This document shows positions 21,668 to 62,696 of a stretch of DNA of 64,000 nucleotides, piece after piece (position 1 is the stretch's first letter; each line of letters begins with the position of its first letter). Made by a program: the position numbers and the translations under genes. This stretch comes from Croceicoccus marinus (GTDB lineage: Bacteria > Pseudomonadota > Alphaproteobacteria > Sphingomonadales > Sphingomonadaceae). A model generated the notes under the pieces. It worked only from the letters and a program-made list of their open reading frames with translations, was not told the DNA's origin and did no database searches. The stretch lies in the NCBI RefSeq assembly GCF_001661675.2, contig NZ_CP019602.1:2567501-2631500 (forward strand). Direction: 5' to 3'.

Positions 21668-21789
21668 AGCGTTTGCCCGGGAGCGTCGATAGAAAGCCGA
21701 CCGCTGGGGCATGCGAGGTTGCGGAAGGTCGGCTATCGGTAGGGCCGGCCGGTTGGCTTGAATGGCCGGAATGGGGTGGGAAGCGGACA
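21668..21789. repeat. Imperfect palindromic repeat next to a small gene
   Basis: The stretch ends ATGGCCGGAATGGGGTGGGAAGCGGACAT split over 21761-21790, matching the 3' end of the island repeats (for example 57811-57838: GACCGAAATGAG...AAGCGGACGTG). It abuts the TAA stop of the minus-strand gene at 21790. The match is by eye and its 5' limit is approximate. Confidence 0.5.
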
Positions 21790-22038
21790 TTAAAGACTTC
21801 GGGCCAATAGCATCCCGGCAAACCAAGCGATGCCGCTCATTGCGACCAACCCAAGAATCGCTTGAACCACAACCAGCCCCCATTGGTCACCCGTAATGAC
21901 CCTTAAGGCCGCAACGTAGGCGAGCGCTATCGTAAGAGCGGCCCAAAGCAGCGCGGTATTGTCGTAGGCGAGTGCAACCCAAAGGAGGATAATCACTCCA
22001 ACAACTACCAGCGTAGTGTTTAACAACGTCCGTCCCAT
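21790..22038 (-). CDS. Small hypothetical membrane protein
   Basis: The 82-residue product has three hydrophobic stretches (TLLNTTLVVVGVIILLWVALAY; TALLWAALTIALAYVAALRV; GLVVVQAILGLVAMSGIAWFAGMLL) and almost no soluble part. No family is recognised. Both sides carry repeat DNA of the type that separates genes in the island at 51.9-58.5 kb, and base use is less GC-rich than in neighbours, so it may be a transferred gene. Confidence 0.55.
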   Translation of the reverse strand: MGRTLLNTTLVVVGVIILLWVALAYDNTALLWAALTIALAYVAALRVITGDQWGLVVVQAILGLVAMSGIAWFAGMLLARSL

Positions 22039-22132
22039 GCTTGCGGATGTTGGCCGTTTTGCTGCACGTCAGCAACCGGTCGTATCCGGGCTGGCAGCTT
22101 TCGATAAAACCTGGTGCTTAGCGGACCCGCAG
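22039..22132. repeat. Imperfect palindromic repeat, second flank of the small gene
   Basis: Directly upstream of the minus-strand start at 22038 the sequence reads through CAACCGGTCGTATCC, GGCTGGCAGCTTTCG and GCTTAGCGGACC, resembling in order the blocks CAATCGGTCGTTTGC, GGGCAGCTTTTGG and GTTAGCGG of the island repeats. Similarity is lower than among the island copies. Confidence 0.4.
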
Positions 22133-46431: not shown

Positions 46432-47728
46432 GGACACCCGCAAAAACCCCTCGCTTTGAGGCACGTGCTGTGATTCACTCGGGGCATTGGAAGGAGAGCA
46501 TCGATGCAGCCACACAGCCTGTTTTCGCTTGCGGAGCACTTGGACCGGCTGAGCAAGGACGGCGATCCGCTGGAGGTTTTGGCGGGCACGGTTGAGTTTG
46601 AACGCTTCCGGCCGCTTCTGACCCGCGGGCTTGGCTATAGCGATGGCGCCAAGGGCGGTCGCCCGGCCTTCGATCCCGTGGCGATGTTCAAAGTGCTGGT
46701 GGTTCAGGCGCAGCATAATCTGTCGGATGCGCGCATGGAGTTCATGATCAGAGATCGCCTGAGCTGGATGCGCTTCTTCGGCTTCGACCTTGGCGGCGCG
46801 ATGCCGGACGAGAACACCATCCGTCACTATCGCAACCGGCTCACCGAGAGCGGCACGCTTGAGGCGTTGATGCAGGCGTTCGAACAGCAACTGCGCGAGG
46901 CAGGATACCTGGCGATGGGCGGTCAGATCGTCGATGCCACGCTGGTGCCCGCGCCCAAGCAGCGCAACACCGAGGACGAGAAGGCCGCGATCAAAGCCGG
47001 CAAGTCAGCCAGGCAGATCTGGCGCAGCAAGCCGAACAAGGCTCACCAGAAGGATGTCGATGCACGCTGGACGTTGAAGATCGGCGGCAAGGTCCGCTAT
47101 CGTCCCGACGGCACCCCGCTGCCGCAGATCGCCACACCCGTGTTTGGCTACAAGTCGCATATCAGCATCGACCGGCGCTTCGGCTTTATTCGCAAAGCAG
47201 CGGTGACATCGGCCGCCGACAGCGACGGGCGCCAGTTGCGCCGGGTGATCGACACCGCCAACACCGCTGGCGATGTCTGGGCCGACAGCGCCTATCGCAG
47301 CCAGAAGAACGAGACATGGCTGGCGCGCAACATGCTCACGAGCCGCATCCATCGCAGAAAGCCCAAGGGCAAACCGATGCCCGAGCGCATCGCGCGCGCC
47401 AATGCCGCGAAATCGGCCGTGCGGGCCAAGGTGGAGCACGTCTTTGCGCACCAGAAGAATCGCTATGGTCTATTCATCCGGACCATCGGGCTCGCCAGGG
47501 CGCAGGCAAAACTCACGCTGGCTAATCTCGCCTACAACTTCGACCGCCTGATCTTCCATGAGCGATGTGCAGCCACGGGATAGGTGCGCCTGAAATCGAC
47601 AAAAAGGCCCGGAAGCCCAAAGACATCACCGAAAATTGGCCAATCCAACCTTTCCAATAGCGTCTCTCGCGGCAATCCCCGCAACCCGCCCAATCACGGC
47701 GCCAAAATCATGGTTGTTGCGGGTGTCC
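46432..47728 (+). mobile_element. IS5-family insertion sequence, copy 2
   Basis: The 1,297-bp element has the same ends (GGACACCCGCAAAAAC and GGACACCCGCAACAAC reversed) and same length as copy 1. It is flanked by the 4-bp duplication AGAT (46428-46431, 47729-47732) and sits inside tnpC. Both known target sites fit AGNT. Confidence 0.92.
46504..47583 (+). CDS. IS5-family transposase, copy 2
   Basis: The 359-residue protein is colinear with copy 1 at 39712 and differs at scattered residues, for example LTESGTLEALMQAFEQQL against LTGSGTLEALMQAFERQL. All DDE-region blocks are intact, so the gene looks functional. Bases 47275-47486 are identical to 40483-40694 in copy 1. Confidence 0.93.
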   Translation: MQPHSLFSLAEHLDRLSKDGDPLEVLAGTVEFERFRPLLTRGLGYSDGAKGGRPAFDPVAMFKVLVVQAQHNLSDARMEFMIRDRLSWMRFFGFDLGGAMPDENTIRHYRNRLTESGTLEALMQAFEQQLREAGYLAMGGQIVDATLVPAPKQRNTEDEKAAIKAGKSARQIWRSKPNKAHQKDVDARWTLKIGGKVRYRPDGTPLPQIATPVFGYKSHISIDRRFGFIRKAAVTSAADSDGRQLRRVIDTANTAGDVWADSAYRSQKNETWLARNMLTSRIHRRKPKGKPMPERIARANAAKSAVRAKVEHVFAHQKNRYGLFIRTIGLARAQAKLTLANLAYNFDRLIFHERCAATG

Positions 47729-49193
47729 AGATCCTGCCGTCGTCAAGGAAGCGGGTGAACGCGTCCCAGCGCTTCAGCATGTAGAGGCAGGCCTTGGTCA
47801 GATCATGGCCGCGCGACAGCTTGGCCACCTGCGCGGTGAGCCAGGTGTGGAGCTCGGACATCAGCGGTGCGCTGAGTTCCTGGCGAACGGCAATCCGCTC
47901 GGCCGGAGCCGTGCCATTGATGCCCCGCTCGATATCGAACAGGGCGTCGAGGCGCTGCACGGCTTCCAGCGCGATCGGATAGGTCATGCTGCTGCGCTGG
48001 CCACGGCTCTTCTTGCGGGCTGAGCTTACGACATCGGCCAGCTCGAAGAACTTGCGGCGCGCATGGGCAAAGCATCCAGCTTCCAGCACGGGACCGGGAT
48101 CACGGCCTTCGCGATAGAGCTCGTTGTAGCCGCCATAGGCATCGGCCTGCAGGATACCGGACCATGCCGCGAGATGGGTCTGCGGGTGCTCGCCGCGCCG
48201 ATCGCGCGAGTAATGGAACAGGGCAGCTGGTGGATCAGATCCGGCGAACGGGCGATCATCGCGAACGTAAACCCATAATCGAGCCGTATCGGTCTTGCCC
48301 CTGGCCATGACCGGCACGGTGGTATCGTCACCATGGATGCGGTCCGAAGCAAGGACGTGCGCTTCAATCAGCTTGTAGAGCGGCATCAGCGCATGGGCAG
48401 CCGCGCCGACCTGATCGGCGAGGGTCGAGACGCTGAGCGGCACGCCTTCGCGGGCAAAGCGCTCGGCCTGCCGGTTGAGCGGTTGGTGCTGCCCATACTT
48501 CTCGAACAATAGCATCGCCAGGAAGCTTGGTCCGGCCCATCCGCGCGGGACGACATGGAACGGCGCAGGGGCCTGCGCGATCTTCTCGCAGTCCCGGCAC
48601 GAGAACTTCTCGCGCACCGTCTGGATCACCTTCCACGAGCGCGGGATCACCTCGAGCGTCTCGGTGACGTCTTCGCCGAGCTTGGAGAGCCGATCCCCGC
48701 CGCAGGCCGGGCAGGAACATGGGGCGGGCACCACGACGCGCTCGCGCGGCAGATGATCGGGAAACGGCTTCCTTGCCGGGCGCTTGCGCTCGAGGGCGGT
48801 GACGGTGGTGGTCCTGGCTGCCGCTTCCTCGGCGATCAGATCGTCCTCAGCGGCATCAGCCTCGAGATCTTCGAGCTGCAGCTCCATCTGATCCAGCAGG
48901 CGGCGGCTGCGCTCGGCGCTGGCGCCATACTGCTCGCGCCTGAGCTTGGCGATCTGCAGCTTGAGGTGGGCGATCACCGCTTCGATGGCGCTCTCGCGGG
49001 CATGGGCGTTGGCCAGTTCGGCTGCGACAGTGGCGGCGTGCTGCTCGGCCTCCTCGGCTCTGCGGGCCATCGTCGCCACCAGCGCCTTGAGCGCTTCGAC
49101 ATCGTCCGGAACGGGCGAGATGGCGGCTTCCATGACGCAGAGTGAATCACGTGGGATGCCCTGCTGCAAGAGCAAAATGCCACCTTCTGACGA

Positions 49194-49535
49194 TTATCCT
49201 GCGCTCTGCGGCCGCCACGTATACTGCGGGTTGCGCCAGTCGATCCCCTCCAGCAGGCAGGCCAGCTGGGACGGGGTCAAGGATACCGTTCCGTCCTTCG
49301 CCGAGGGCCATACAAACCGGCCCTTCTCGAGCCGCTTGGCATAGAGCGACATGCCGATCCCGTCGTGCCAGATGATCTTGATCAGCGATCCCGCGCGGCC
49401 GCGAAACACGAACAGATCGCCGCTATGAGGATTACGCTTGAGACCCTGCTGCACCAGCAGGGCCAGGCCCTGCATGCCCTTCCGCATGTCCGTGTGGCCC
49501 AGCGCGATCCACACCCGCGCGCTCGGAGGGATCAT
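49194..49535 (-). CDS. tnpB: IS66 accessory protein TnpB
   Basis: The 113-residue product carries the IS66 Orf2 signature HTDMRKGMQGLALLVQQGL, GDLFVFRGRAGSLIKIIWHDG and LPSQL-like TPSQLACLLEGIDWRNP. It is needed with TnpA and TnpC for IS66 movement. Start overlaps the tnpA stop by four bases. Confidence 0.93.
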   Translation of the reverse strand: MIPPSARVWIALGHTDMRKGMQGLALLVQQGLKRNPHSGDLFVFRGRAGSLIKIIWHDGIGMSLYAKRLEKGRFVWPSAKDGTVSLTPSQLACLLEGIDWRNPQYTWRPQSAG

Positions 49536-49930
49536 CGCAGAGCCTTCAATGCGGCAGCAACCAGCGCCGGTGATGCCGCAGGATAAATGCTCAGCCGCTT
49601 GCCGCGCGGCAGATCAATGATCATCACGGGGTGCTCGACCGTGCTGGTCGCCGCTGCGTCCTCATCCACCACCGCTTCGGCAAACACCGGCGCCGGCAAC
49701 GCCTCGGATAAGCTGCTTGCCCGTTCGCCTGCCTCGCGCAGCTTGCGCCGCCAGGTGTAGATCAGCGCCGAAGAAATATCGTGACGTCGGCACACCTCGG
49801 CAACGCAGGCGCCCGGCGCGAAAGCATCGGAAAGTATCCGCAGCCGCTCTTCCTCGCTCCAACGTCGGCGCCGCTCTGGCCCCGAAAACACCGTCACCTG
49901 ACCCATCGACCACTCCATAAGCGCGCTCAC
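49532..49930 (-). CDS. tnpA: IS66 accessory protein TnpA
   Basis: The 132-residue product is IS66 Orf1: a helix-turn-helix of the form RRRWSEEERLRILSDAF...VAEVCRRHDISSALIYTWRRKLR, then an acidic linker and a short C-terminal domain (MIIDLPRGKRLSIYPAASPALVAAAL). A shorter start at 49906 (MGQVTVFSG) is possible. Confidence 0.9.
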   Translation of the reverse strand: MSALMEWSMGQVTVFSGPERRRRWSEEERLRILSDAFAPGACVAEVCRRHDISSALIYTWRRKLREAGERASSLSEALPAPVFAEAVVDEDAAATSTVEHPVMIIDLPRGKRLSIYPAASPALVAAALKALR

Positions 49931-50047
49931 AAGAGCACGCTAAAGAGCGCTCAATACCTACCCAGACAAGGCGGTCCCCGCCGGATGGATACGATTAGTC
50001 GGACGCACTCTCGGCTATAATCATCAACCACGGCGAAGATCCGGAAC

Positions 50048-51354
50048 CTGGACACCTCGAAGAACCGTTTGTTTTGGTCAAGATGGCGGCAGGAGGGGGC
50101 TGATGACAGCCTTGGGGCGGTGAGGGTCGGCCTTTGACCTCATTCCCTTAGTTTTCTGGGCTGGAGCGCCACTCGGCACCCCGTTTTTGCGCTATGCTGG
50201 CGCACCTCGCCCCTCAAGCCAGGCGAGGCGCTGGAAGTTATAGGCTAGGTTCGCCATGCCGATCTTGATGCGCGCGCGGGCGATGCCGATGGTGCGGATG
50301 AACAGGCCCATGCGGTGCTTCTGACCAGCGAACACGTGCTCGACCGCTGAGCGGACAGCGGAGCGCCTGGCATTGGCCCGGGCGATGTGCTCGGGCAGCG
50401 GCCGGCGCGGCATCCGCCGCTGGTGGATGTTGCTCTTGAACATGCCGCGCTCGAGGAACGCTTCGTTCTTCTTCGACCGATAGGCCGTGTCCGCCCATAC
50501 GCCTGAGCCGGTGTTTTGCTTGCTGATGAGCTCGGGCAGCCGCGCCCCGTCATGGGCGTTGGCCGCGCTGGCATCCCAGGTCCTGATCAGCCCATGCGCT
50601 CGGTCGATGCCGATGTGGTTTTTGTAGCCGAACATCGGGATGGCAAGATCGACCGGCTTGAAGCCCTTGGGGTCGCCGCCCTCCTTCACCTTGGCCTTGG
50701 AGTATTTGACCGTCCAGCGCGCATCGCGATCCTTCTGCCGGACCTTGGCAGGCCTGGTCTTCCAGCGCTCCGGGATCTTGCCCTCTTTGATTGCCGCTTT
50801 CTCTTCGTCGGTGTTGCGCTGCTTGGGAGCCGGCACCACGGTCGCATCGATGATCTGCCCGCCCATCGCCAGATAACCGCGTTCAGTCAGCGCCGCATCG
50901 AAGCGCGCAAAGAGCTTGTCGATCGCCTTGGCCTTCACGAGCCGCTCGCGGAACAGCCACACTGTGGTCGCGTCCGGGACCCTGCCATCGAGCCCTAGCC
51001 CAAGGAACCGCTGGAACGACAAACGATCCTTGATCTGGAACTCGCATCCCTCGTCAGAGAGCGAGTAAAGCGCCTGCAGCACCAGGATCTTGAACATCAT
51101 CACCGGATCGAACGGCGGCCGGCCTCCCTTGCACCGGTCGCTCCGTCGGAGCGCCGCTATCAACGGACCGCGGAACACCTCGAAATCCAACACCGCTGAC
51201 AAACGCTCCAGCGGATCTCCCGCCGCACTCAGCGCCGCATACCGATCCGACAGATCAAAGAAACCAGGCTGACCCACCATCATCACTCCGCTCACTGCAA
51301 AGGTGATTGAATCAGATCAGCCCATCAAAGGCGAGGGTTTTTCGAGGCATCCAG
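50048..51354 (-). mobile_element. IS5-family element, third and different type
   Basis: Ends CTGGACACCTCGAAGAACC (from 50048) and, reversed, CTGGATGCCTCGAAAAACC (to 51354) form an imperfect inverted repeat. No target duplication is visible (flanks GAAC and ATTA), which suggests that recombination or deletion has joined different flanks. It truncates the IS3 gene on one side and lies three bases before a lipoprotein start on the other. Confidence 0.75.
50192..51283 (-). CDS. IS5-family transposase, third element
   Basis: The 363-residue transposase shows GGRPPFDPVMMFKILVLQALYSLSDE, GGQIIDATVVPAPKQRN with the first Asp, SGVWADTAYRSKKNE with the second and VEHVFAGQKHRMGLFIRTIG with the Glu. It is related to, but clearly distinct from, the two 1,297-bp copies. 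ATG at 51283 follows GGAG; GTG at 51295 is an alternative. Confidence 0.92.
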   Translation of the reverse strand: MMVGQPGFFDLSDRYAALSAAGDPLERLSAVLDFEVFRGPLIAALRRSDRCKGGRPPFDPVMMFKILVLQALYSLSDEGCEFQIKDRLSFQRFLGLGLDGRVPDATTVWLFRERLVKAKAIDKLFARFDAALTERGYLAMGGQIIDATVVPAPKQRNTDEEKAAIKEGKIPERWKTRPAKVRQKDRDARWTVKYSKAKVKEGGDPKGFKPVDLAIPMFGYKNHIGIDRAHGLIRTWDASAANAHDGARLPELISKQNTGSGVWADTAYRSKKNEAFLERGMFKSNIHQRRMPRRPLPEHIARANARRSAVRSAVEHVFAGQKHRMGLFIRTIGIARARIKIGMANLAYNFQRLAWLEGRGAPA

Positions 51355-51357
51355 ATT

Positions 51358-51912
51358 ATGCGCGATACGATCCTCTTGATCATTCTCTCGGTGTCGATAC
51401 CGGGTTGTTCGGAAAAAAATCTTTTTGACCGGCGACCCTCTTCAGACCGTGAACTTAAAGAGCAGGACGTCGGCTTTGGATGGAATGGCGTTTCAAAAGA
51501 TATGGGTCCACACTATGTGGGTCTGACTATCCACCCCAACGATCGTTACGAATTTGAGTTAGGAAAGTATCGATCAAACGGCAGCACGTTTGGATCCAAA
51601 GACTCCCAAATTCTTCGAAAATATACGGGAATGCTACGTGCTTCCGACGCCTCTGAATTGCGAAGAGAACTAGCTCGATTGGAGCCGCCTGCCGGTTCCG
51701 GTTACTATGCCACGATTCCCGGCTGCCCATATAGGCCGCACTCTGATATCGAATACTACGTAGCCTTTGGATCAGGAGATAAGATCGACTTGGCGGCGGT
51801 CGAGAAAAGCTGCGCAACAGGTAAGGCAGCAGAGGCTCGACATATCTTAAACGGAATTGCCGCCAAATTTCGAAAGATCGACGACGACTTTCCAATCAAA
51901 GGCGTCAGCTAA
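51358..51912 (+). CDS. Hypothetical lipoprotein (island cargo)
   Basis: The 184-residue product starts MRDTILLIILSVSIPGCSE, a lipoprotein signal with lipobox SIPGC. The mature part is hydrophilic with GCPYRPHSDIEYYVAFGSGDKIDLAA near the end, and no family was recognised. The ATG is three bases from the end of an IS, so its native promoter is gone; an outward promoter in the IS would be needed. GC is much lower than in the core. Its TAA stop lies inside the repeat that follows. Confidence 0.65.
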   Translation: MRDTILLIILSVSIPGCSEKNLFDRRPSSDRELKEQDVGFGWNGVSKDMGPHYVGLTIHPNDRYEFELGKYRSNGSTFGSKDSQILRKYTGMLRASDASELRRELARLEPPAGSGYYATIPGCPYRPHSDIEYYVAFGSGDKIDLAAVEKSCATGKAAEARHILNGIAAKFRKIDDDFPIKGVS

Positions 51913-52013
51913 CCACCCCGAACTCGCCATCAGCGGAATTCTGGGGGGCTGCCAAAAGCTGCCCGGCAGCAAACGACCGGTTTCGGTCAAACTCGATTGC
52001 GGTTAAGTCAGAC
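51904..52013 (-). repeat. Cassette-type palindromic repeat R1
   Basis: Reverse complement of the R2 repeat at 56545: GTTTGCTGCCGGGCAGCTTTTGG, GATGGCGAGTTCGGGGTGGTTAG and CCGCAATCG blocks are shared in order. It contains two hairpins, GCTGCC/GGCAGC and GACCG/CGGTC. The ends CTAACC and GGTTAAG are inverted. It starts within the stop codon of the upstream gene and ends two bases before the next ATG. Confidence 0.8.
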
Positions 52014-52014
52014 T

Positions 52015-52533
52015 ATGCTTGCACTAAATGATCCGCGTTGGGCCACTTTATCGCACGCCTATGGAAGTGCCCAAGACATACCGGAGATGCTCCGCGTTCT
52101 GGGACAGGATGCGGGCCGCATAACCTCTATCGACAGCGAACCGTGGTTCGGGCTCTGGTCTAGTCTTTGTCATCAAGACGATGTGTTCGAGGCGTCTTAT
52201 GCGGCCGTTCCACACGTTGTGGAAATTGGCACCAACGCCAATGGCCCTATTAGTTTCAGCTTTTTTCAGTTCCCTGCTGCGGTCGAGGTCGCGCGGAAGA
52301 GCGGACGAGGCCCTGAAGTGCCATTTGATCTGAAATTTGCCTATTTTGCAGCCACCAAGAAAATCGACGATCTAATCGCTGCACATCGGAACGAGGATTG
52401 GGATATCGACACGCTCTTGTCGGTGCTCGCCGCGCAGGCTGTGGCGAAGGGAAATCACCGAGTTGCAGCAGCTATCATGAATTTGGACGACGTGCTGATA
52501 CAGCGCTTAATAGATTTCGATTTCGCTAACTGA
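52015..52533 (+). CDS. Hypothetical protein, immunity-like (island cargo)
   Basis: The 172-residue product begins MLALNDPRWATLSHAYGSAQDIPEMLRVL and contains WFGLWSSLCHQDDVFEASYAAVPHVVEI. That phrase resembles a widespread family of helical-repeat proteins with LW..L.HQGDV..ASYAAVPHLV, often found beside polymorphic toxins and suspected to be immunity proteins. This is recalled resemblance, not a search. No toxin gene is adjacent. It begins right after repeat R1. Confidence 0.6.
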   Translation: MLALNDPRWATLSHAYGSAQDIPEMLRVLGQDAGRITSIDSEPWFGLWSSLCHQDDVFEASYAAVPHVVEIGTNANGPISFSFFQFPAAVEVARKSGRGPEVPFDLKFAYFAATKKIDDLIAAHRNEDWDIDTLLSVLAAQAVAKGNHRVAAAIMNLDDVLIQRLIDFDFAN

Positions 52534-52669
52534 TCAGCGACCGGTATCCACCCTGATCAGCTTGAGGGCGTGCATTTTGGCTTCGCATTGAATAACATCC
52601 GCCAGTTGTCAGTTCGGCTCCAACAAGCACGCCCAGAAAAAGGCGTTGACCAGACCTACCTAAACAAAA

Positions 52670-52972
52670 CTATCTCTCATTAACAAATTTAGAGAAAGCA
52701 TTCCAAAAACCATCGTCAAATACACTTTCTATATTCAGGCCAAGATCTTGCCCCAAAATAAAATATTTTTCCTTTTCGGCCTCACTTAAAACTATTTCCG
52801 CGTCTATTAGCTCGATAAACAGGCCTTCGAACGCCATTTCATATTCTCTATGAGTTAGGTATTCTTTTACAAATCTAATCGTTTCCAAATCGAGATGTTT
52901 TGAAAATTTCGTAAGCAGTTCTCCAATACTTTTTTCAGCTTGGAGCCACTGATGCTTCGAAAGGTTGGCCAT
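52670..52972 (-). CDS. MafI-like immunity protein (island cargo)
   Basis: The 100-residue product (MANLSKHQWLQAEKSIGELLTKF...HREYEMAFEGLFIELID...GQDLGLNIESVFDDGFWNAF) resembles the MafI family of immunity proteins: a helical protein with a mid-block YEMAFEGL and a C-terminal GLNIESVFDDGFW. Those proteins neutralise MafB-type secreted toxins. It is very AT-rich for this genome. No partner toxin is in view. GTG at 52978 is an alternative start; AGGTG lies upstream of the ATG. Confidence 0.55.
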   Translation of the reverse strand: MANLSKHQWLQAEKSIGELLTKFSKHLDLETIRFVKEYLTHREYEMAFEGLFIELIDAEIVLSEAEKEKYFILGQDLGLNIESVFDDGFWNAFSKFVNER

Positions 52973-53079
52973 AGACACACCTATGAATTTGGAAACGAGA
53001 CTTACATTCTAGACCGCCATTCATACGGCATCGGAGCGGCGAGATCATGTTACTCTAAAGTTTAGCTCTGTTGGCTTAA

Positions 53080-53197
53080 CGTCCGTTATCCACCCCGTTC
53101 CGGTCTCAAATGTAGCATTAACCAATCGCCAAAACCTGACAATTCTGGACGATTGCGGACCGACAGCTTCTGGGCATTTTTTTGTCGAAAGCGGACG
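53080..53197 (-). repeat. Cassette-type repeat R6, degenerate
   Basis: CGTCCG at the left and GCGGACG at the right are inverted; inside are TATCCACCCCGTTCCGG, CGCCAAAACC and GACGATTGCGGAC, in the order seen in R1. It fills part of the 442-base gap 52973-53414; the remaining 53198-53414 shows nothing recognisable. Confidence 0.55.
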
Positions 53198-53414
53198 ATC
53201 ACCTTTGTTGATCGCTTTGCTTGATGTGCGCACGTAGATAGAGAGCCGACCCACGTGGCAATGCCGACATCCCGATGGCGTCTGGCACCATGTTGATCAT
53301 TGTCGCCTAACCACTGCTCGCTCCCAATAGAAATGCCAGCTCAGCAGCGTTTTTCCTCTGGCCATTATCCGAAGGCGACCTCCGGTGTGCGAGCAAAAAG
53401 CCCGTACCTAAGAG

Positions 53415-54404
53415 CTATATCTGCCTGAAAACACGGTTCGCTAAGCTCCCCACTGCCCCAAGCCTAGAGCGGGGGCGGTTTCGATGATCGGGACCGTCAA
53501 CGACTTCGCCCAGATAGGTGTTCGGCTTTGGTGTCTGGTCGGCAATCGAGACGAGATTGCGAAGAGCCAGTCGGCCAAGCGCTTCGTCGGAAAAGGCGGG
53601 CGTGTAATAGATGCAGTCGTCGAAGAAATAATGCGTGACCTGCGACCAGCGCGTCAGCGTCCGGTCGGTCTGTCGGCTGCCGCCGTGGAGCAGGTTGGCC
53701 GTCCAGATGAGCGCCTGCCCCTTGCGTGCCAGAAAAGGCTCTGCGCTCTTCCCATTGGCGTCGCAAAGGGCCTGCCATGCGTCGGCATAGGGGTCCTGCG
53801 CCGAATTAAGTTCGCTGCCATATCCACGCCGCCCTATCATGCCGTTCGTGATGATCGGCCAGCGGTGCGATCCCCGGACGTAGAACAGCGGTCCTGCTTC
53901 GGCGGGAATATCCTCCATCGCAAGCCAGACGCCGCACATGAACCGTTCGGGTAGGCTGGAGAAATGCACAGAATCCGTATGCGCTGCCTGCTGCGTTCCG
54001 ACCGCGAAATTCAGGGTCTGGAACGGAAAGGCGCGGCGGCCATAAAGCTTTGATAAGAGGTTCAGAATAGCGGGATTGGATGCGATCGCGTGGACGTCCT
54101 CGTCGGTCGTCCATGCGTCCTGAATGCGCGGATCACCCTTTGTCTTTTCCGCCGCGGGATCGTCCAGCGGGATGTCGTAGCGGGGTCCCAGATTGCGCTT
54201 GATCCGATCGATCCGTGCATCGATTTCGGGGTCGGGGAAGTCGACGACGCCAAAGCCATCGGCGTGCAGCGATCGGGCCAGCGTCTTTTCCTGCTCCGTA
54301 AACCCTTCCAGCGTCTCGCTTTCGAATACCGGGGATTCGATCAGGGGGACGCCGGGAAACAGCCGGGCCGATTTCGTTTCCGGACTTGCGGTTGATTCTG
54401 GCAC
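53415..54404 (-). CDS. Phytanoyl-CoA dioxygenase-like Fe(II)/2-oxoglutarate oxygenase
   Basis: The 329-residue product has the PhyH-family iron ligands: AAHTDSVHFSS (His-x-Asp, about residues 141-143) and the distal His in NLLHGGSRQTDRTLTRWSQVTHYFF, with the Arg that holds 2-oxoglutarate. YVRGSHRWPII is another family block. Such enzymes hydroxylate small molecules or glycan/lipid substrates. Start is GTG at 54404. It lies 15 bases after the methyltransferase gene and is GC-rich, unlike the small genes around it, so the two probably arrived together. Confidence 0.8.
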   Translation of the reverse strand: MPESTASPETKSARLFPGVPLIESPVFESETLEGFTEQEKTLARSLHADGFGVVDFPDPEIDARIDRIKRNLGPRYDIPLDDPAAEKTKGDPRIQDAWTTDEDVHAIASNPAILNLLSKLYGRRAFPFQTLNFAVGTQQAAHTDSVHFSSLPERFMCGVWLAMEDIPAEAGPLFYVRGSHRWPIITNGMIGRRGYGSELNSAQDPYADAWQALCDANGKSAEPFLARKGQALIWTANLLHGGSRQTDRTLTRWSQVTHYFFDDCIYYTPAFSDEALGRLALRNLVSIADQTPKPNTYLGEVVDGPDHRNRPRSRLGAVGSLANRVFRQI

Positions 54405-54419
54405 TTGAATGGCTTGCCT

Positions 54420-55751
54420 TTAATTCAGCACTTCCGTGCGAAGCATGCGTAGCAGATCTTGCAACGCACCGTGATGCATGACCGGGATACCGCCCGCACG
54501 GGGCCAGAAGGCTCCGGTATGCCCGTGCAGATAATGCCCCGTCAGCGGGCGGCCCAGTTCCTCGAACCGGTCGAGCACGGGCGGGATGGGATTGTCGGGA
54601 CGCGGCGCGTTCGCGATCTCTCCTTCCGAAAACATGTCGGCGGTGCATTCATGGCTGAACAGGCTGCCCTTGGGGTCGAGGCGATCGGCGACGACCACGA
54701 GGTCCCTGGCCGACACTTCGAGGTCGACGTCCATCCACAGGCACATTAGATGCGGCGGCCGGTATTGGCGGAACGTGTCGGCGTAGAAGCCCTTGTGAAA
54801 CGTCACCTGCTCTAGCGATCCCATGCGACGGATATTCTCCGTCACCTCATCTAGGCTGCCGGCATAATCGCCTTCGGTATAGCCGCTATGCTTGGCTTCC
54901 GGCAGGCCCTCGAATGAATCGAAGATATGCATCTTGAGGCCGAGCTGCTTGCAGGCAAAACTCAGCATAGAAGAGCTGAACCCCTTGAAGCAGCCGAACT
55001 CCGCAAAATCGCCTTCAATGCCATGGGCCTTAAGGACATAAAGCTGATGCGCGATGGAGATGATCTCGGCCACCGAATTGGGCTTGCCGTGAAAATCGGC
55101 CGAGCCGGGCCGTGCCAGCTTGTTGGCGGTGGGGAAAAACCGGTCGACGAAAATGAAATGCGAGGAGACCGCCTGCAGATACCGGACATAATCGGCGAGC
55201 GCAGGCAGCTCGCGCAGAGAGGGCACGAGGAGGATCCTGCGCAGTGCATGAACGAACCGCTTTTGCCCGGAGAGCGAGCCGAGATCGCCCACCACATCGG
55301 GCGCAAAGACCGCGACGATGTCAATGACCTCCGGAGGAAACGGGCCGACGATTCCGGACTTCGGCGCGGAGGCGAGCTTCTCCAGAAGGGCGCCGCCTAC
55401 AAGACTGGCCGTGCCCAGCCAGGCCTTGGGTGCCAGCGTTCCGCCTCCGCGCGCCATGATCTTCACGTCGACCACGCGGTCCTGCGCAATCGCGCTTTCG
55501 GGCACTTCCAGCGTAAAACCGCTGAAACGCGCCCTTCGATAACCGGGCAGCTTGCTTTCGACATCGGGGCGTTCACCGCCCGTCATGGTCGAGGACGCCA
55601 TCCTGCCGTCTATCCATGCCTCGATCTGCAGGTCCTTGCCGTGACGCGCGGCGGCCCAACCCGAGAACCGGTTAAGCGCATTGGTATCAAGATGACCTCT
55701 CGTCCCCGCCATGCGGCTCAATTGGCGCACCAGACCTCTTGGGCGTTTCAT
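54420..55751 (-). CDS. TylF/MycF-like methyltransferase
   Basis: The C-terminal 240 residues of this 443-residue protein match the TylF (macrocin O-methyltransferase) family: HGIEGDFAEFGCFKGFSSSMLSFA (SAM site), MHIFDSFEGLPEA, VTFHKGFYADTF and LWMDVDLEVSARD with metal-binding Asp residues. The N-terminal 200 residues contain an all-beta segment (LDTNALNRFSGWAAARHGKDLQIEAWIDG) seen in some glycan-modifying proteins. Family members methylate sugar hydroxyls. With the neighbouring dioxygenase it may modify a surface polysaccharide; the substrate is unknown. Confidence 0.8.
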   Translation of the reverse strand: MKRPRGLVRQLSRMAGTRGHLDTNALNRFSGWAAARHGKDLQIEAWIDGRMASSTMTGGERPDVESKLPGYRRARFSGFTLEVPESAIAQDRVVDVKIMARGGGTLAPKAWLGTASLVGGALLEKLASAPKSGIVGPFPPEVIDIVAVFAPDVVGDLGSLSGQKRFVHALRRILLVPSLRELPALADYVRYLQAVSSHFIFVDRFFPTANKLARPGSADFHGKPNSVAEIISIAHQLYVLKAHGIEGDFAEFGCFKGFSSSMLSFACKQLGLKMHIFDSFEGLPEAKHSGYTEGDYAGSLDEVTENIRRMGSLEQVTFHKGFYADTFRQYRPPHLMCLWMDVDLEVSARDLVVVADRLDPKGSLFSHECTADMFSEGEIANAPRPDNPIPPVLDRFEELGRPLTGHYLHGHTGAFWPRAGGIPVMHHGALQDLLRMLRTEVLN

Positions 55752-55959
55752 GGATATTCCTTGTTGAGATTTGGCGACCGACTGACATCCAAGGACGAAA
55801 GTATGCAGCCTCGATGGAATGCTGCGACCTGCACTGGAAAAGCCAGCTTTGGCAATTCGTTATGTCGCCCCTAATCTCAAATCAAGTGTCCCATAGCTGA
55901 AAACAGGCCGCTAATGCCGCCTTTGCACGAGGTTGGGTCGTTCAGGCATTCCAGTCCGA

Positions 55960-56222
55960 ACGCCATGCTGCTGCTTAACGTCCCGCCGGTCGCCAAGACG
56001 GCCGGTTTTAGGGGAACGCATCGGGTGGTCGATTGTAGGCTATGTCGGCGGTTGCTGATCATTGCGCCCGGGGGGCGTTCTAATGTCAGCTTTCCTTGCT
56101 TCGGGCCCAAACACTGCCGGCCCGTAGTCGCCCACTTCCGTCGGCTGACAGCGGTTCTCCGCTGCCACTTTTGCGGCAGGAACGGGGTGGATTGAGGACA
56201 TTGACCATCCAAACCAGACCCT
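55960..56222. repeat. Repeat-derived intergenic DNA (R7), no gene seen
   Basis: The 559-base gap 55752-56310 holds no convincing gene. From 55975 it shows CTTAACGTCCCGCCGGTCG, TTTGCGGCAGGAACGGGGTGG and other blocks of the cassette repeats, apparently two rearranged copies. Short frames on both strands here lack any protein features. Confidence 0.5.
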
Positions 56223-56310
56223 ACTATGATTTGACATGGTCACTACCACTCTGATTGTTGATGGTATGATGTCGGGCACCGGCATTTGAGATGCTATTGA
56301 TGGGGGCTAT

Positions 56311-56544
56311 GTGGAGCCCTTTGAACTCAACATTTCTCCTGGATTGGCGAGAACCCTTTCGCAATGGGTGTCTGAATATCGCGCTGCTAGCATTGGTGGC
56401 CTTAGCGACTCAGATATCATTGCCGCATTGGACGAGAAAGGCCTATCGCTCAGAAGCCAGATTGCTGATGAATTGCCTAATCAGGTCGTGGGCTACTACT
56501 CCGATGCGCGATTGAGACGGCTGGACAGTTTCCCGCACGTGTAA
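56311..56544 (+). CDS. Small hypothetical protein (island cargo)
   Basis: The 77-residue product starts with GTG and reads VEPFELNISPGLARTLSQW...GLSDSDIIAALDEKGLSLRSQIADELP...; GGGGG six bases upstream could serve as ribosome site. The body is a regular amphipathic helix pattern. No family was recognised. In-frame codons upstream reach a stop at 56287, so it could be a fragment of a longer protein. TAA (56542-56544) is directly followed by repeat R2. Confidence 0.45.
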   Translation: MEPFELNISPGLARTLSQWVSEYRAASIGGLSDSDIIAALDEKGLSLRSQIADELPNQVVGYYSDARLRRLDSFPHV

Positions 56545-56630
56545 TGTCCGCAATCGGTCGTTTGCTGCCGGGCAGCTTTTGGCGCCGCCTAGAATGTCGC
56601 TGATGGCGAGTTCGGGGTGGTTAGCGGTCA
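56545..56630 (+). repeat. Cassette-type repeat R2
   Basis: Begins TGTCCGCAATCGGTCG exactly after a stop codon, continues GCTGCCGGGCAGCTTTTGG (hairpin) and GCGAGTTCGGGGTGG, and ends GTTAGCGGTCAC six bases before the next, convergent gene's stop. Confidence 0.8.
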
Positions 56631-56636
56631 CTAGTT

Positions 56637-57122
56637 TTAATCGCCATTCAAGGGAGGCTTTGCCTCACGAAGAACTGTGGTCGGGTCGTTGACGAACCTG
56701 ATTGCTCTGGATTGCATCATCACCCTCAGCAACGGCTCGTAGCATGGCTGGATGACAGCCCCGCCATCTCTTGCAACGAAAACACATGAAAGGTCACGCG
56801 CAAGCGCGCATACGCCATTCATCAAGGTTGGAGTTGGGTCTCTGACATCCAAGCGACACTGCACGAGTTCGATCCAACAAGCATCAAAATGCACTTGGAT
56901 GTCGTGCGCGCGCTCATCGCCCCAAATGCGAAGTCCATCTGCCCAAGACTGCTTCTCTGGAAGCAACTGATTGAGGCGAGCATAAAGCAAATTTGTGTCC
57001 TGCAAAGCGAACCCAAACTTTACGCCATTAAGCTGATTGCGGTCTGTTCGAACTACATACACTTCCGCGTTCGTCACCGCAAAAGCAGGGACCAAATCAA
57101 AGACGAATTGCCAAAGCGCCAT
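56637..57122 (-). CDS. Hypothetical protein (island cargo)
   Basis: The 161-residue product begins MALWQFVFDLVPAFAVTNAEVYVVRTDRNQLNGVKFGFAL split, and includes WADGLRIWGDERAHDIQVHFDACWIELVQCRLDV. It is soluble, mixed alpha/beta, of immunity-protein size, with no recognised family. The frame continues upstream to 57230, but that part is translated repeat DNA (PPVGKRPIADISAND), so ATG at 57122 is preferred. It lies between repeats R2 and R3. Confidence 0.6.
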   Translation of the reverse strand: MALWQFVFDLVPAFAVTNAEVYVVRTDRNQLNGVKFGFALQDTNLLYARLNQLLPEKQSWADGLRIWGDERAHDIQVHFDACWIELVQCRLDVRDPTPTLMNGVCALARDLSCVFVARDGGAVIQPCYEPLLRVMMQSRAIRFVNDPTTVLREAKPPLNGD

Positions 57123-57148
57123 TCTTAGTATGGTATCATTTGCCGAAA

Positions 57149-57269
57149 TGTCCGCAATCGGTCGTTTACCGACAGGCGGCTTTTGGACCAAAAACGCAAT
57201 TAGCTGCCAGTCCGCTTTCGGGAAGCTCACCGACCAGTCAGTATGACCGAAATAGGGTGGTTAGCTGAC
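57149..57269 (+). repeat. Cassette-type repeat R3
   Basis: Starts TGTCCGCAATCGGTCG, contains CTTTTGGACCAAAAACGC and AATTAGCTGCCAGTCCGCT, and ends GGTGGTTAGCTGAC. Nearly identical to R4 across the middle 60 bases. It separates two small divergent genes. Confidence 0.85.
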
Positions 57270-57292
57270 AATAGCTCGATTACCAGAAAGCA

Positions 57293-57715
57293 ATGAGAAT
57301 TGCTCCAATTGTGGCCGCTGGGGTCTTAGCTTCATGCGGTATGCCTTCGGACAGCCTGCTCGTCGCTGACTTGATCATCGAATGCCCTTTGGTGCCAACT
57401 GATGAAATGAGAGACGTCCTTATCTCCTTCGCAGAACGGAACAGTCAAAAAGCGGATGTTCAGGAAATCTCGCCGTCCTACCTCCGAATGCACATGGATG
57501 GGGCCGGCTTCGGGCACAGTATTTTCGTCGAGCAATGGACGCTTGAGGGAAACTCAGAGAACAATAGATGTAGCTCTCGATCCTCAGTTTGCGTAAATGC
57601 CATGGTCTTCGCCGGTGGCTCGATACCGGAAGACGAGCTGACCGAGAATACGGCCCGTCAAAGGCAGGTTGCGCATCTGCTTGAGGAGGCCCTTACCGGC
57701 ACATGTGAACGCTAG
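57293..57715 (+). CDS. Hypothetical lipoprotein (island cargo)
   Basis: The 140-residue product begins MRIAPIVAAGVLASCGMPS, a short lipoprotein signal with lipobox LASC. The mature part is hydrophilic with four further cysteines (SNNR-C, CVNAM, TGTC and EC), suggesting disulfides. No family was recognised. Stop TAG (57713-57715) is directly followed by repeat R4. Confidence 0.6.
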   Translation: MRIAPIVAAGVLASCGMPSDSLLVADLIIECPLVPTDEMRDVLISFAERNSQKADVQEISPSYLRMHMDGAGFGHSIFVEQWTLEGNSENNRCSSRSSVCVNAMVFAGGSIPEDELTENTARQRQVAHLLEEALTGTCER

Positions 57716-57840
57716 TGTCCGCAATCGGTCGTTTGCAGACATTCCGCTTTTGGACCAAAAACGCAATTAGCTGCCAGTCCGCTATTGGGAAGCTCGCCGA
57801 CCGATCGGGATGACCGAAATGAGTTGGTAAGCGGACGTGT
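57716..57840 (+). repeat. Cassette-type repeat R4
   Basis: Starts TGTCCGCAATCGGTCG right after a stop codon and ends GTAAGCGGACGTG, so GTCCGC and GCGGAC form inverted ends about 115 bases apart. The middle CTTTTGGACCAAAAACGC is shared with R3. This is the most complete copy. Confidence 0.85.
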
Positions 57841-57851
57841 CGACACTGCCA

Positions 57852-58496
57852 TCAGCAGAGGTCGCTCGCAAGCCTTTCGTCGATGTTCGGCACACTAAGA
57901 TCAAGTAATTCCTCAGCTTGTGTACCGACGAAAATTGCCGCAAGATTACCGAGAGCATCGTAGTGACAAGGGTGGTTGCCCATGCCTGAAGTTGTCATGC
58001 CGCCTCGTTTGCGTTCGAAGCCTAAGGGTGTTCCGTCCGTGAACATGCTAAGACTGCCCCAATAGTTGTCTGTCTGAGCATCCCATCTCTTCGTCAGATG
58101 GTCGAAGTCCGACTGATCCACTTGAAGGGTCCGCTTACTCACTGATCCAGTCTCGCGTTCAAGAACCGCCAACTGGCCGGATACCCGGCCATTTGTCTTT
58201 GAAAGTGAAACGGCCATCCACCGATCCCCAAATGAAGGCATTGCCACGAAACGCAAGCTGTCATCGGAAAGGGCCGATAGCGGCGTTAGGTTCGCGAGCA
58301 GGTCTTCACCCTCGTCTAAGACGATATTCTTGGAGTGAGACGACAATGGCCCGTAGGTGGTCGCTCCCATCGCGCGAAGCATAGGTCGGGCGACAAAAAC
58401 GTATGCGAGCACGAACAGCACTAGCAAGGCAACTGCTAGGATACCGGGCTTCCGCTTAAAAAAATTAGTCAGGACCATCGCGCCGACTTTAGGCAT
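57852..58496 (-). CDS. Hypothetical membrane-anchored protein (island cargo)
   Basis: The 214-residue product has one N-terminal helix (GILAVALLVLFVLAYVFVARPML) after a short basic cytoplasmic stretch, then a soluble extracytoplasmic domain with SLRFVAMPSFGDRWMAVSLS and GNHPCHYDALGNLAAIFV. No family recognised. The frame extends upstream only through repeat R5, so ATG at 58496 or 58478 is the real start. Confidence 0.6.
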   Translation of the reverse strand: MPKVGAMVLTNFFKRKPGILAVALLVLFVLAYVFVARPMLRAMGATTYGPLSSHSKNIVLDEGEDLLANLTPLSALSDDSLRFVAMPSFGDRWMAVSLSKTNGRVSGQLAVLERETGSVSKRTLQVDQSDFDHLTKRWDAQTDNYWGSLSMFTDGTPLGFERKRGGMTTSGMGNHPCHYDALGNLAAIFVGTQAEELLDLSVPNIDERLASDLC

Positions 58497-58503
58497 TGAT
58501 TGA

Positions 58504-58535
58504 ACGTCCGCAATCGGTCGTTTGCAGACATTCCG
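58504..58535 (-). repeat. Cassette-type repeat R5, truncated
   Basis: ACGTCCGCAATCGGTCG and TTGCAGACATTCCG match R4 exactly for about 30 bases, then similarity stops, about 28 bases before the end of the next transposable element. Confidence 0.75.
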
Positions 58536-58651: not shown

Positions 58652-60196
58652 TTAAGGGAATGTGGGGCGAGAGCCGGCGGAGCGTAGCGCAGCCGGCTCT
58701 CGCCCCACATGTGCAAAAATTTCGCCAGTCTCGGTCCGGGGGCCGAAGACCAGGCGCTGTGCTTCATCGGCTCGCCATATCTTGAGGCGGCGCTGAATGG
58801 TCCGCAAAAGCTTGTCTGGATATTGGCCAGGGTGCTCCCGCTGCAAACGTTCCATAAGTTCGCGCCCTGTCCGCCATGGCTCGGCCTGATACCAGGCGTG
58901 GAGCTGATCTGTGACGGCCACCACCGGGTCCGGCCGGCGTCGACCGCGCTTGGGTTGCGGTTTTGCTCGAGCCGTTGGTCTTGCCTCTCCGACCTGCCAG
59001 GCAGTCCGCAAACCCGCAAAGAACTGATCAAGCGTTGTGTCATTCGCCACGACGGCCTCGCCGGGTTTGTCGGCCAGCACGACAAGCCGCTCCTGACAGT
59101 CGCGGATTTGGCGCAGCAACTTCACGGGATCCAGGCGTTCCAGTGTTTCGGCGAGCTGAGCGCGAACGGCATCGGTCGTCCTGGGGTCATCGATCAGGCG
59201 TTGGGCTGGCGTCGCTGGCGTATGATATCGTTTCGTCACCTTAGCGCCGTCGCGGCGCTTTTCCGCGAGCTTGAAGGATGGCTGGAAGAAGTTCCCGTAA
59301 AACCGTTGCAAAGCATACAGTTCGGCCAACACGCTGGTCGCCGCGATACCCTCGAAGCGGCGATAACCCACTATGCGGCGCACAATGGCCCCATTTTTCT
59401 GTTCGACCCAAGCCTGGTCATTCTTGCGGTAGGGTCGGCAACGGGTGAAGGTGATTGAGTTCGCCGCGCACCAGTCGCGCACCGTCGGATTGAGGAAGAC
59501 GCTGTCATTGTCGGTGTCGAAGCCAAGCACCACCATCGGCAGCTGTCCGCGCAATTCGTTGAGCACCGCCACAAGTAAATTTTGCTCGCGGAACAACAGT
59601 GGCGCGCATTCGGTCCAGCCGGTGGCGATATCCGTCAAAACCAGTGTTTGTGCAAAGCTTCCTTTCGCCACTGGCCCGCTATGCGAGACCAGATCCGCCT
59701 CAAAATGACCGGGCGCCGGATCGTCCCAGTCGTCGAATGTCCGGATAGGGATACTACGCCGTAGGGCGGATTGACCGGCAGTCCGGCGCCGCGGGGCGCC
59801 CGTCGCCGTCGCGCGGCGATCCTTCAAGGCGCGGTCGATCGTCGCCGGGCTCATCTGCAACAGTCGCTCTTTCACTTCACTGTCGAGCTCTAGATGACCG
59901 CTGCGTTCCATCGCGCGCACCAAAATCGGAATCATCACCTTCAATCGTTTCGAACAGATCCGGTCGGAGGCCTCCCACAGCACCGTCAGCGCCTCACGGA
60001 CCGCATCATTGTAAATGCGTTGACCAGGACGAGAGCTTTGGCGCGCGGCCCGCTCTGCTCGCATCAGACGCATCCCATGCTTGCGGCAATGGCCTGTGAT
60101 CCGGACAAATTCATCGAGTATGCGGCTCTTTTCCCCGCGCCCTGCTGACCGATATCGATCTCGGACCGCCGAGATCAACTCCTCCCGTGTTGCCAT
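58652..60196 (-). CDS. Integrase-core (DDE) transposase
   Basis: The 514-residue product starts MATREELISAVRDRYRSAGRGEKS with an HTH region, then an rve-type DDE domain: GHFEADLVSHSG (Asp), VVLGFDTDNDSVFLN (Asp) and QAWVEQKNGAIVRRIVGY (Glu). A basic C-terminal domain follows. AGGAAGGTG precedes ATG at 60196. It resembles transposases filed among unclassified (ISNCY-like) sphingomonad and rhizobial elements. A 19-bp perfect hairpin lies in its last codons. Confidence 0.85.
   Translation of the reverse strand: MATREELISAVRDRYRSAGRGEKSRILDEFVRITGHCRKHGMRLMRAERAARQSSRPGQRIYNDAVREALTVLWEASDRICSKRLKVMIPILVRAMERSGHLELDSEVKERLLQMSPATIDRALKDRRATATGAPRRRTAGQSALRRSIPIRTFDDWDDPAPGHFEADLVSHSGPVAKGSFAQTLVLTDIATGWTECAPLLFREQNLLVAVLNELRGQLPMVVLGFDTDNDSVFLNPTVRDWCAANSITFTRCRPYRKNDQAWVEQKNGAIVRRIVGYRRFEGIAATSVLAELYALQRFYGNFFQPSFKLAEKRRDGAKVTKRYHTPATPAQRLIDDPRTTDAVRAQLAETLERLDPVKLLRQIRDCQERLVVLADKPGEAVVANDTTLDQFFAGLRTAWQVGEARPTARAKPQPKRGRRRPDPVVAVTDQLHAWYQAEPWRTGRELMERLQREHPGQYPDKLLRTIQRRLKIWRADEAQRLVFGPRTETGEIFAHVGREPAALRSAGSRPTFP
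58660..58710. other. 19-bp perfect hairpin in the 3' end of the transposase gene
   Basis: ATGTGGGGCGAGAGCCGGC (58660-58678) and its exact complement (58692-58710) are separated by 13 bases. There is no T-run on either side; on the minus strand it sits 8 bases before the stop codon. Confidence 0.85.
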
Positions 60197-60312
60197 GCTC
60201 ACCTTCCTCATTCTGATTCTCCCGACGCCGCTGGCTCGAGAACATTTCCGATGAGGCAACACTCATTTCAAAGGAGCATTTCTGGCGAGGCAATGCGGGA
60301 GGCCGGAGATGA

Positions 60313-62696
<2,384 letters not shown>

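Follow-up and report, generated by a model that had tools for sequence, protein, structure and literature searches.

Single-gene cassettes of sphingomonads appear to move between species by recombination at a short palindromic site

What arranges the small genes, set apart by palindromic repeats of 85-125 bp, that occupy positions 51,358 to 58,535 of the window, a 64,000-nucleotide stretch (positions 2,567,501 to 2,631,500 of contig NZ_CP019602.1) of the 4.11-Mb genome of Croceicoccus marinus? A preliminary description of this DNA proposed a modular gene-capture arrangement, and comparison with a genus set of 14 genomes and with larger sets supports gene capture while redrawing its unit: the block that moves appears to run from core to core around one gene, and the repeat, here called R, is the junction of two elements. 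The sequences are best explained, with a probability of roughly 0.7, by a site-specific gene-cassette system served by a short recombinase; that some kind of site-specific cassette system is at work is rated more probable still.

Half-elements, units and element E

R consists of two half-elements abutting each other, and the unit is a right half (RH), one gene and a left half (LH). The models used were a profile of the left 42 nt, a 123-nt profile of full R (applied to 19 stretches of 11 to 20 kb plus the window), separate models of RH and LH, and a profile of the two halves joined. With the full-R and half models, arrays follow one rule: the first element is a right half, the last is a left half, and full R occurs only at inner junctions, as in the array of locus L070 (genome G010), which reads right half, full, full, left half. 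Isolated units, found with the half models, read right half, gene, left half. The repeat proves to be gene-flanking: among 23 testable left halves in 20 stretches fetched for a left-half match alone, 18 are preceded, 0.25-2.1 kb upstream, by a right half of the same strand, none is followed by one or has one on the opposite strand, and 5 are unpaired. In 182 loci 109 units were called, overlapping loci being counted twice; the 84 that are distinct after removal of repeats have a median inner length of 529 nt, the longest open reading frame (ORF) covers a median of 90% of the space between the halves, and the orientation of the gene is mixed (59 versus 25). Tandem elements are spaced 0-1 nt apart, with no target duplication seen at their junctions.

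Both halves contain a palindromic core of ~31 nt, composed of AATGTCCGC, a 12-13-nt spacer centred on GGGTGG or GGGTCG, and GCGGACATT, that is, 9-nt arms around the spacer, with the RH and LH cores in direct orientation. If a gene block were cut out at its cores, the outer halves should join to an element of ~95 nt, and such gene-free, contiguous elements (E), predicted beforehand, were then found with the joined-halves profile at L085:8880-8970, at L074:8703-8797, and in L166, L167 and L160; two more stand in tandem in L168 (2032-2121 and 2127-2214), and many other matches to this profile are parts of occupied units. E is palindromic with inverted ends, starting at about GKCNGCTTTCGGG and ending at about CAAAAGCTGCC. 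The inner arms of RH and LH are near-perfect AATGTCCGC/GCGGACATT and the outer arms are E-like, as exchange in the spacer (an arm swap) predicts. A palindrome resembling repetitive extragenic palindromic (REP) sequences, AACGTGACAGCCGCGGCTTTGCCGTGGCTGC, lies immediately before the right half in many units of genome G011 (L099, L100, L101, L103, L105, L081, L082, L077 and others) and was seen once inverted, after a left half (L102); it may mark a preferred neighbourhood of E.

The search of relatives found profile matches to the repeat in all 14 genus genomes. In C. marinus itself the left 42-nt profile identifies 25 places, often in same-strand clusters spaced 0.4-1.4 kb, at a threshold (E-value up to 1) near which some matches are due to chance; the block GTCCGCAATCGGTCGTTT, allowing up to 3 mismatches, occurs at 16 places and its reversed form at none. 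When the left block was relaxed to a looser 15-nt form, the window gave 14 matches versus 13.1 expected, which is chance level, so the signal resides in the longer block. At the gathering score, Rfam has no match in the window. The internal hairpins attributed to the repeat are weak as single-strand folds, and strong single-strand structure of R was set aside as a candidate feature, z scores of -0.97 to -2.97 in six copies giving it no support. Another array, in another genus, is indicated by a same-strand run of five exact cores within 3.8 kb (G154:C1:2343417-2347202).

Shared blocks, their breakpoints and a candidate recombinase

Comparison of sites finds different cassettes at one site and one cassette at many sites. 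L096 of C. marinus and L107 of G011 have the same repeats and both flanks in common (79-83% identical), and the genes between them differ, as a gene-capture arrangement would have it; L097 and L105 share their left flank. The convergent intergenic site 5' of L096:6412, at which genomes G005 and G012 have ORFs without halves, appears to be a hot spot beyond the cassette system. The converse case is a VOC cassette, sought in 298 genomes of the family, the set used for all cassette searches: 71 genomes match at all, many weakly as homologous genes, and 18 fetched copies, placed between halves at differing sites in 12 genera, are 84-100% identical including their non-coding edges, with flanks that differ. 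The shared block starts at GG-TGG inside AATGNCCGN-AATGGGGTGGNAA-GCGGACATT and ends with AATGTCCGC-NAT, before GGG-TCG, which places both breakpoints in the core. Mean majority-base conservation is 0.44 outside versus 0.89 inside the left edge (18 copies), and 0.75 inside versus 0.47 outside the right edge (16 copies, two having been dropped, one of them at a contig end), where small gaps blur a 40-nt comparison; in the spacer, GG is conserved at 0.94-1.00.

Other cassettes have core boundaries as well. An array of five cassettes (3.2 kb) used as query matched 12 of the 298 genomes. Cassette X, 94.7% identical over 303 nt between genome G001 and genome G276 of another genus, has an alignment that opens at the core and closes with AGTCCGCAA at the following core, and a lipoprotein cassette present in three genomes (81, 71 and 69%) begins, on its left side, at the core in all three. 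Two candidates were rejected: cassette W as a widespread marker (2 of 298 genomes), and the whole of R as the moving unit (the outer halves differ between copies of one cassette).

The dedicated recombinase anticipated for such arrays has a candidate beside arrays in two genomes, recognized by a regular-expression search that yields many chance matches. It is a short tyrosine recombinase gene (int), of which C. sediminis has two copies, one of them with its frame broken; 30-36 nt separate the end of each from the right half that opens an array. The 210-aa product has the PF00589 catalytic domain at residues 27-197 (E-value 4.7e-21) with the catalytic residues H-x-x-R, H and Y (read by eye); its scores fall well short of all NCBIfam cut-offs, among them those for IntI and Xer, and its alignment with XerD covers the catalytic part only. 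C. marinus has an open copy (72%) on contig C2 and a broken one.

Relatives of int were defined by an E-value up to 1e-20, and 49 of their loci have at least 250 nt of downstream sequence, in which a core was scored on the same strand within 300 nt. A core is present at 17 of the 49 (reversed motif 3, antisense 0), whereas 300-nt windows drawn at random from array loci carry one in 3.2% of cases (binomial p 9e-14). From the first base of the int stop codon to the core the distance is 76-81 nt in 11 of the 17 and 46-47 nt in 2. Three int platforms share a distal tail, 77-94% identical, and differ in cargo: int (broken frame)-VOC-tail in G001 L066, int-two cassettes with membrane-type genes-tail in G001 L068, and int-136-aa gene-tail in G013 L248. 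Among 199 family genomes used for counts of int and of the exact core, 43 have the core (the reversed control, none), and int is present in 22 of these 43 versus 15 expected (Fisher p 0.014). Directly after the G010 array, at L070:9640-10600, lies a different tyrosine recombinase-like gene, of phage type by eye.

The proposed mechanism is as follows. A cassette would be one small gene whose joined ends make the ~31-nt palindromic core, and its entry would be a conservative site-specific exchange within the spacer of a second core, the one in the middle of E. Insertion would split E, the two pieces becoming the outer parts of RH and LH, and an occupied site would read E-left, core, gene, core, E-right; where occupied elements stand in tandem, E-right would abut E-left, and this junction with its two cores would be R. 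The likely enzyme is the 210-aa, catalytic-domain-only tyrosine recombinase, and E-left plus core at a near-constant distance after int in several loci may be a docking site comparable to attI. The sequences themselves show the RH-gene-LH unit, the breakpoints at the core, gene-free E, different cassettes at one site, one cassette at many sites, and int platforms of differing content with a common tail; the circular intermediate, the strand exchange in the spacer and the action of this particular recombinase are inferred.

The arrays of the window, their cargo and their range

At least five clear copies of R and two degenerate ones had been counted in the window. Four full copies remain, all with the ordered shared blocks: R1 (51904..51991, minus strand; full-R E-value 1.3e-9, also found by the half models), an LH/RH junction in the opposite orientation to the others; R2 (56543..56630, plus strand; 2.4e-10), a junction of short form; and two of long form on the plus strand that the half models also recognize, R3 (57147..57270; 1.2e-29; LH 57148-57208, RH 57210-57270) and R4 (57714..57837; 2.3e-30; LH 57716-57775, RH 57777-57836). 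The fifth, beginning at 58504, loses homology near 58535 and so is a left half only, a truncated one (58504..58535, plus strand, LH positions 1-33 only) that closes the array, leaving four full copies and one half. A degenerate junction does exist at 53081..53200 on the minus strand (full-R E-value 9.7e-7; halves weak, 0.016/0.024); the other, placed at 55960, matches neither the full-R model nor the half models.

The genes between 56311 and 58496 alternate in orientation as described: a cassette gene on the plus strand (56311..56544), one of 161 aa on the minus strand without a Pfam family (56637..57122), one of 140 aa on the plus strand (57293..57715), and cassette gene W of 214 aa on the minus strand (57852..58496), which has a 93% identical counterpart in a different array in G013. 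The first and third abut the repeat directly, exactly as reported, with TAA followed by TGTCCGC at 56545 (R2) and TAG followed by TGTCCGC at 57716 (R4). Around R1 are a small ORF without a Pfam family beside its right half, the far half of which was not found (51358..51912, plus strand), and cassette-type genes of ~172 aa (52015..52533, plus strand, no Pfam family) and ~102 aa (52670..52978, minus strand). Transposase-like ORFs, presumably of IS66, IS5 and IS21 insertion sequence types, flank the cassette stretch at 47694-51295 and 58652-61863, and the first and last cassettes are seemingly cut by them. Genes for a PhyH dioxygenase and a TylF-type methyltransferase (53415-55751) stand within the cassette stretch, carry no halves themselves, and are probably a separate insertion. 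A further unit, absent from the preliminary description, stands alone at 21728-22126: its right half (21728..21789, plus strand; RH model E-value 1.3e-8) contains the core GGGGTGGGAAGCGGACATT, the longest ORF between the halves (21793..22038, minus strand) encodes an 82-aa protein predicted by eye to be a membrane protein, and a left half closes it (22066..22126, plus strand; LH model E-value 4.4e-7).

When nine window proteins were compared with Pfam, PhyH and TylF/methyltransferase alone passed the cut-off, each within the half-less 53.4-55.8-kb stretch, and none of the nine matched the defence-system libraries. Among 66 cassette proteins, 34 Pfam families were matched, and those among the matches listed, with one member each, include Imm8, Barstar, Tdi1 immunity, TIR, rhomboid and several DUFs; the defence-system libraries matched 3 families, again with one member each.

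An exact 18-base core occurs in 71 stretches from 84,980 species genomes, of which 57 are sphingomonad by title (Actirhodobacter, which we take to be a sphingomonad, included) and 14 are not (5 Caulobacterales, 3 unspecified Alphaproteobacteria and 6 others). The RH and LH models, trained on Croceicoccus, find paired units in 23 of the 71, all with sphingomonad titles, and in none of the other 14, so that spread beyond sphingomonads is not shown. The plasmid and phage sets contain no match to R-like DNA. The VOC cassette is present at 86% on a Sphingomonas plasmid, and on a Sphingopyxis plasmid (L297) a core lies 78 nt from the int stop. Relatives of int occur on 412 of 72,556 plasmid records, Enterobacterales included, and related systems may therefore exist in many Proteobacteria; the Agrobacterium and Rhizobium plasmid int loci viewed have no core. 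On an Escherichia coli plasmid (L316, 72075-80665) an int relative of ~200 aa, ~52% identical, stands among unrelated genes.

Alternative explanations and known systems

Several observations weigh against a cassette system served by int. The recombination is deduced from sequence, none having been observed; no clean orthologous pair of empty and occupied sites was found among the sites compared, the L096 site in G005 and G012 being filled by other small ORFs without halves and an L100 site in G000, G005 and G006 lacking the unit together with the next gene. The spacer varies between 12 and 13 nt. The right boundary of the lipoprotein cassette does not resolve to the core, and in cassette W the left end of the shared stretch is the stop codon, not the core, its other end lying ~20 nt inside the left half. 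A DDE transposase and an arm-binding integrase domain among the 66 cargo proteins indicate that a few of the called units may be other elements. As for the enzyme, int is absent from the window, its relatives are found in 71 of the 199 family genomes, 4 of the 17 downstream cores are off the usual distance (105-149 nt), and relatives of ~70% identity (most of L276-L296) have no core downstream, so the link between int and core holds for one clade. To these are added the 21 of 43 core-bearing genomes without int, which could also mean that site-specific recombination proceeds as proposed by another enzyme, the short recombinase being a frequent passenger or neighbour. The unrelated recombinase-like gene that adjoins the G010 array (by eye) fits this alternative, which is possible though unlikely given the near-constant spacing from int stop to core in 11 loci and the platforms with common int and tail. 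If the host XerC and XerD acted on the core sites, as they do in the dif modules of Acinetobacter, this would account for a core with a short spacer between palindromic arms, for single-gene cassettes and for arrays at which int was missing or unsampled, and to our knowledge Xer is present in all bacteria of the group; the 12-13-nt spacer between 9-nt arms, arms unlike those of dif, and cores in direct rather than alternating orientation make this very improbable.

The remaining explanations dispense with a dedicated enzyme or assign the repeats to a known class. E might be an ordinary dispersed repeat at which RecA-type homologous exchange swaps genes: its halves are repeated in each genome, neighbouring R copies within one array are in some cases >90% alike, and recombination between direct repeats is possible. 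Breakpoints should then scatter over the ~45-nt outer halves, whereas the 18 VOC copies and cassette X break in the core, even between genera whose E copies differ, and a recombinase gene stands beside some arrays; we consider this doubtful. That R is a REP sequence or a miniature inverted-repeat transposable element (MITE) inserting near gene ends, with the intervening genes accidental, would agree with its intergenic copies, often near gene 3' ends, and with the palindromic shape and inverted ends of E. It is contradicted by genes that travel with the inner repeat ends between genera in blocks shared from core to core, and by the pairing of RH with LH in one order and strand only, and has very little probability. 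Slightly less credible still is a degenerate integron or cluster of attC sites lacking integron-integrase (CALIN), in which R would be attC and the absent integrase IntI. Points of resemblance are the arrays with one small gene per unit, the palindromic repeat at the junctions and the immunity-like cargo; the arrays are nevertheless bounded by half sites, their genes are in mixed orientation, and both the integrase and the attC boxes fail to appear, as set out below.

If a site-specific cassette system exists as proposed, sphingomonads have a cassette traffic of their own, invisible to integron finders because its sites and enzyme differ. Such traffic would explain the turnover of small orphan genes at fixed intergenic places and would let single genes pass from genus to genus (copies of the VOC cassette in different species reach 100% identity); with a very small recombinase and short, definable sites, how minimal a gene-capture machine can be would become testable. 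We give an even chance to the broader proposition that this is an independent third kind of gene-cassette system beside integrons and dif modules, with a catalytic-domain-only recombinase inserting single-gene circles into tandem E and distributing genes of immunity, defence and membrane types among sphingomonads. The titles and abstract beginnings of the open PubMed Central papers listed contain no description of such a system, subscription papers and preprints being outside the search, and its novelty is provisional in proportion to that scope.

Among known systems, RIT elements and other simple tyrosine recombinases belong to the same broad superfamily (PF00589); RITs (PMC3414803, PMC8138268) are trios of larger recombinases, unlike the single, short enzyme considered here. 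Mobile insertion cassettes and MITEs with passenger genes are likewise non-autonomous, with a gene between palindromic ends, but the ends described here do not move whole and lack target duplication at tandem junctions. The dif (pdif) modules of Acinetobacter plasmids are similar in that single genes bounded by recombinase core sites are shuffled between replicons. Those modules depend on the host XerCD, with sites in alternating orientation and a dif site of 11+6+11; the cores described here are in direct orientation with other arms, a 12-13-nt spacer and a separate linked recombinase (the dif site of the genus is unmapped). Integrons also have arrays of single small genes whose content varies between strains, palindromic recombination sites, and a tyrosine recombinase gene; their docking site beside that gene, attI, may have an analogue in the core downstream of int in 17 of 49 loci. 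The IntI model TIGR02249 exceeds its cut-off in none of the 14 genus genomes, its weaker matches occurring also in 14 of 14 control genomes, and the attC boxes RYYYAAC and GTTRRRY are each found in 1 of the 109 units (overlapping loci counted twice). Judged by these comparisons, the system works like an integron but fails these two defining features, and it differs further in an int of ~210 aa with a catalytic domain only, breakpoints at both gene ends in a 31-nt core, arrays bounded by half-elements, scattered single cassettes, and genes in both orientations.

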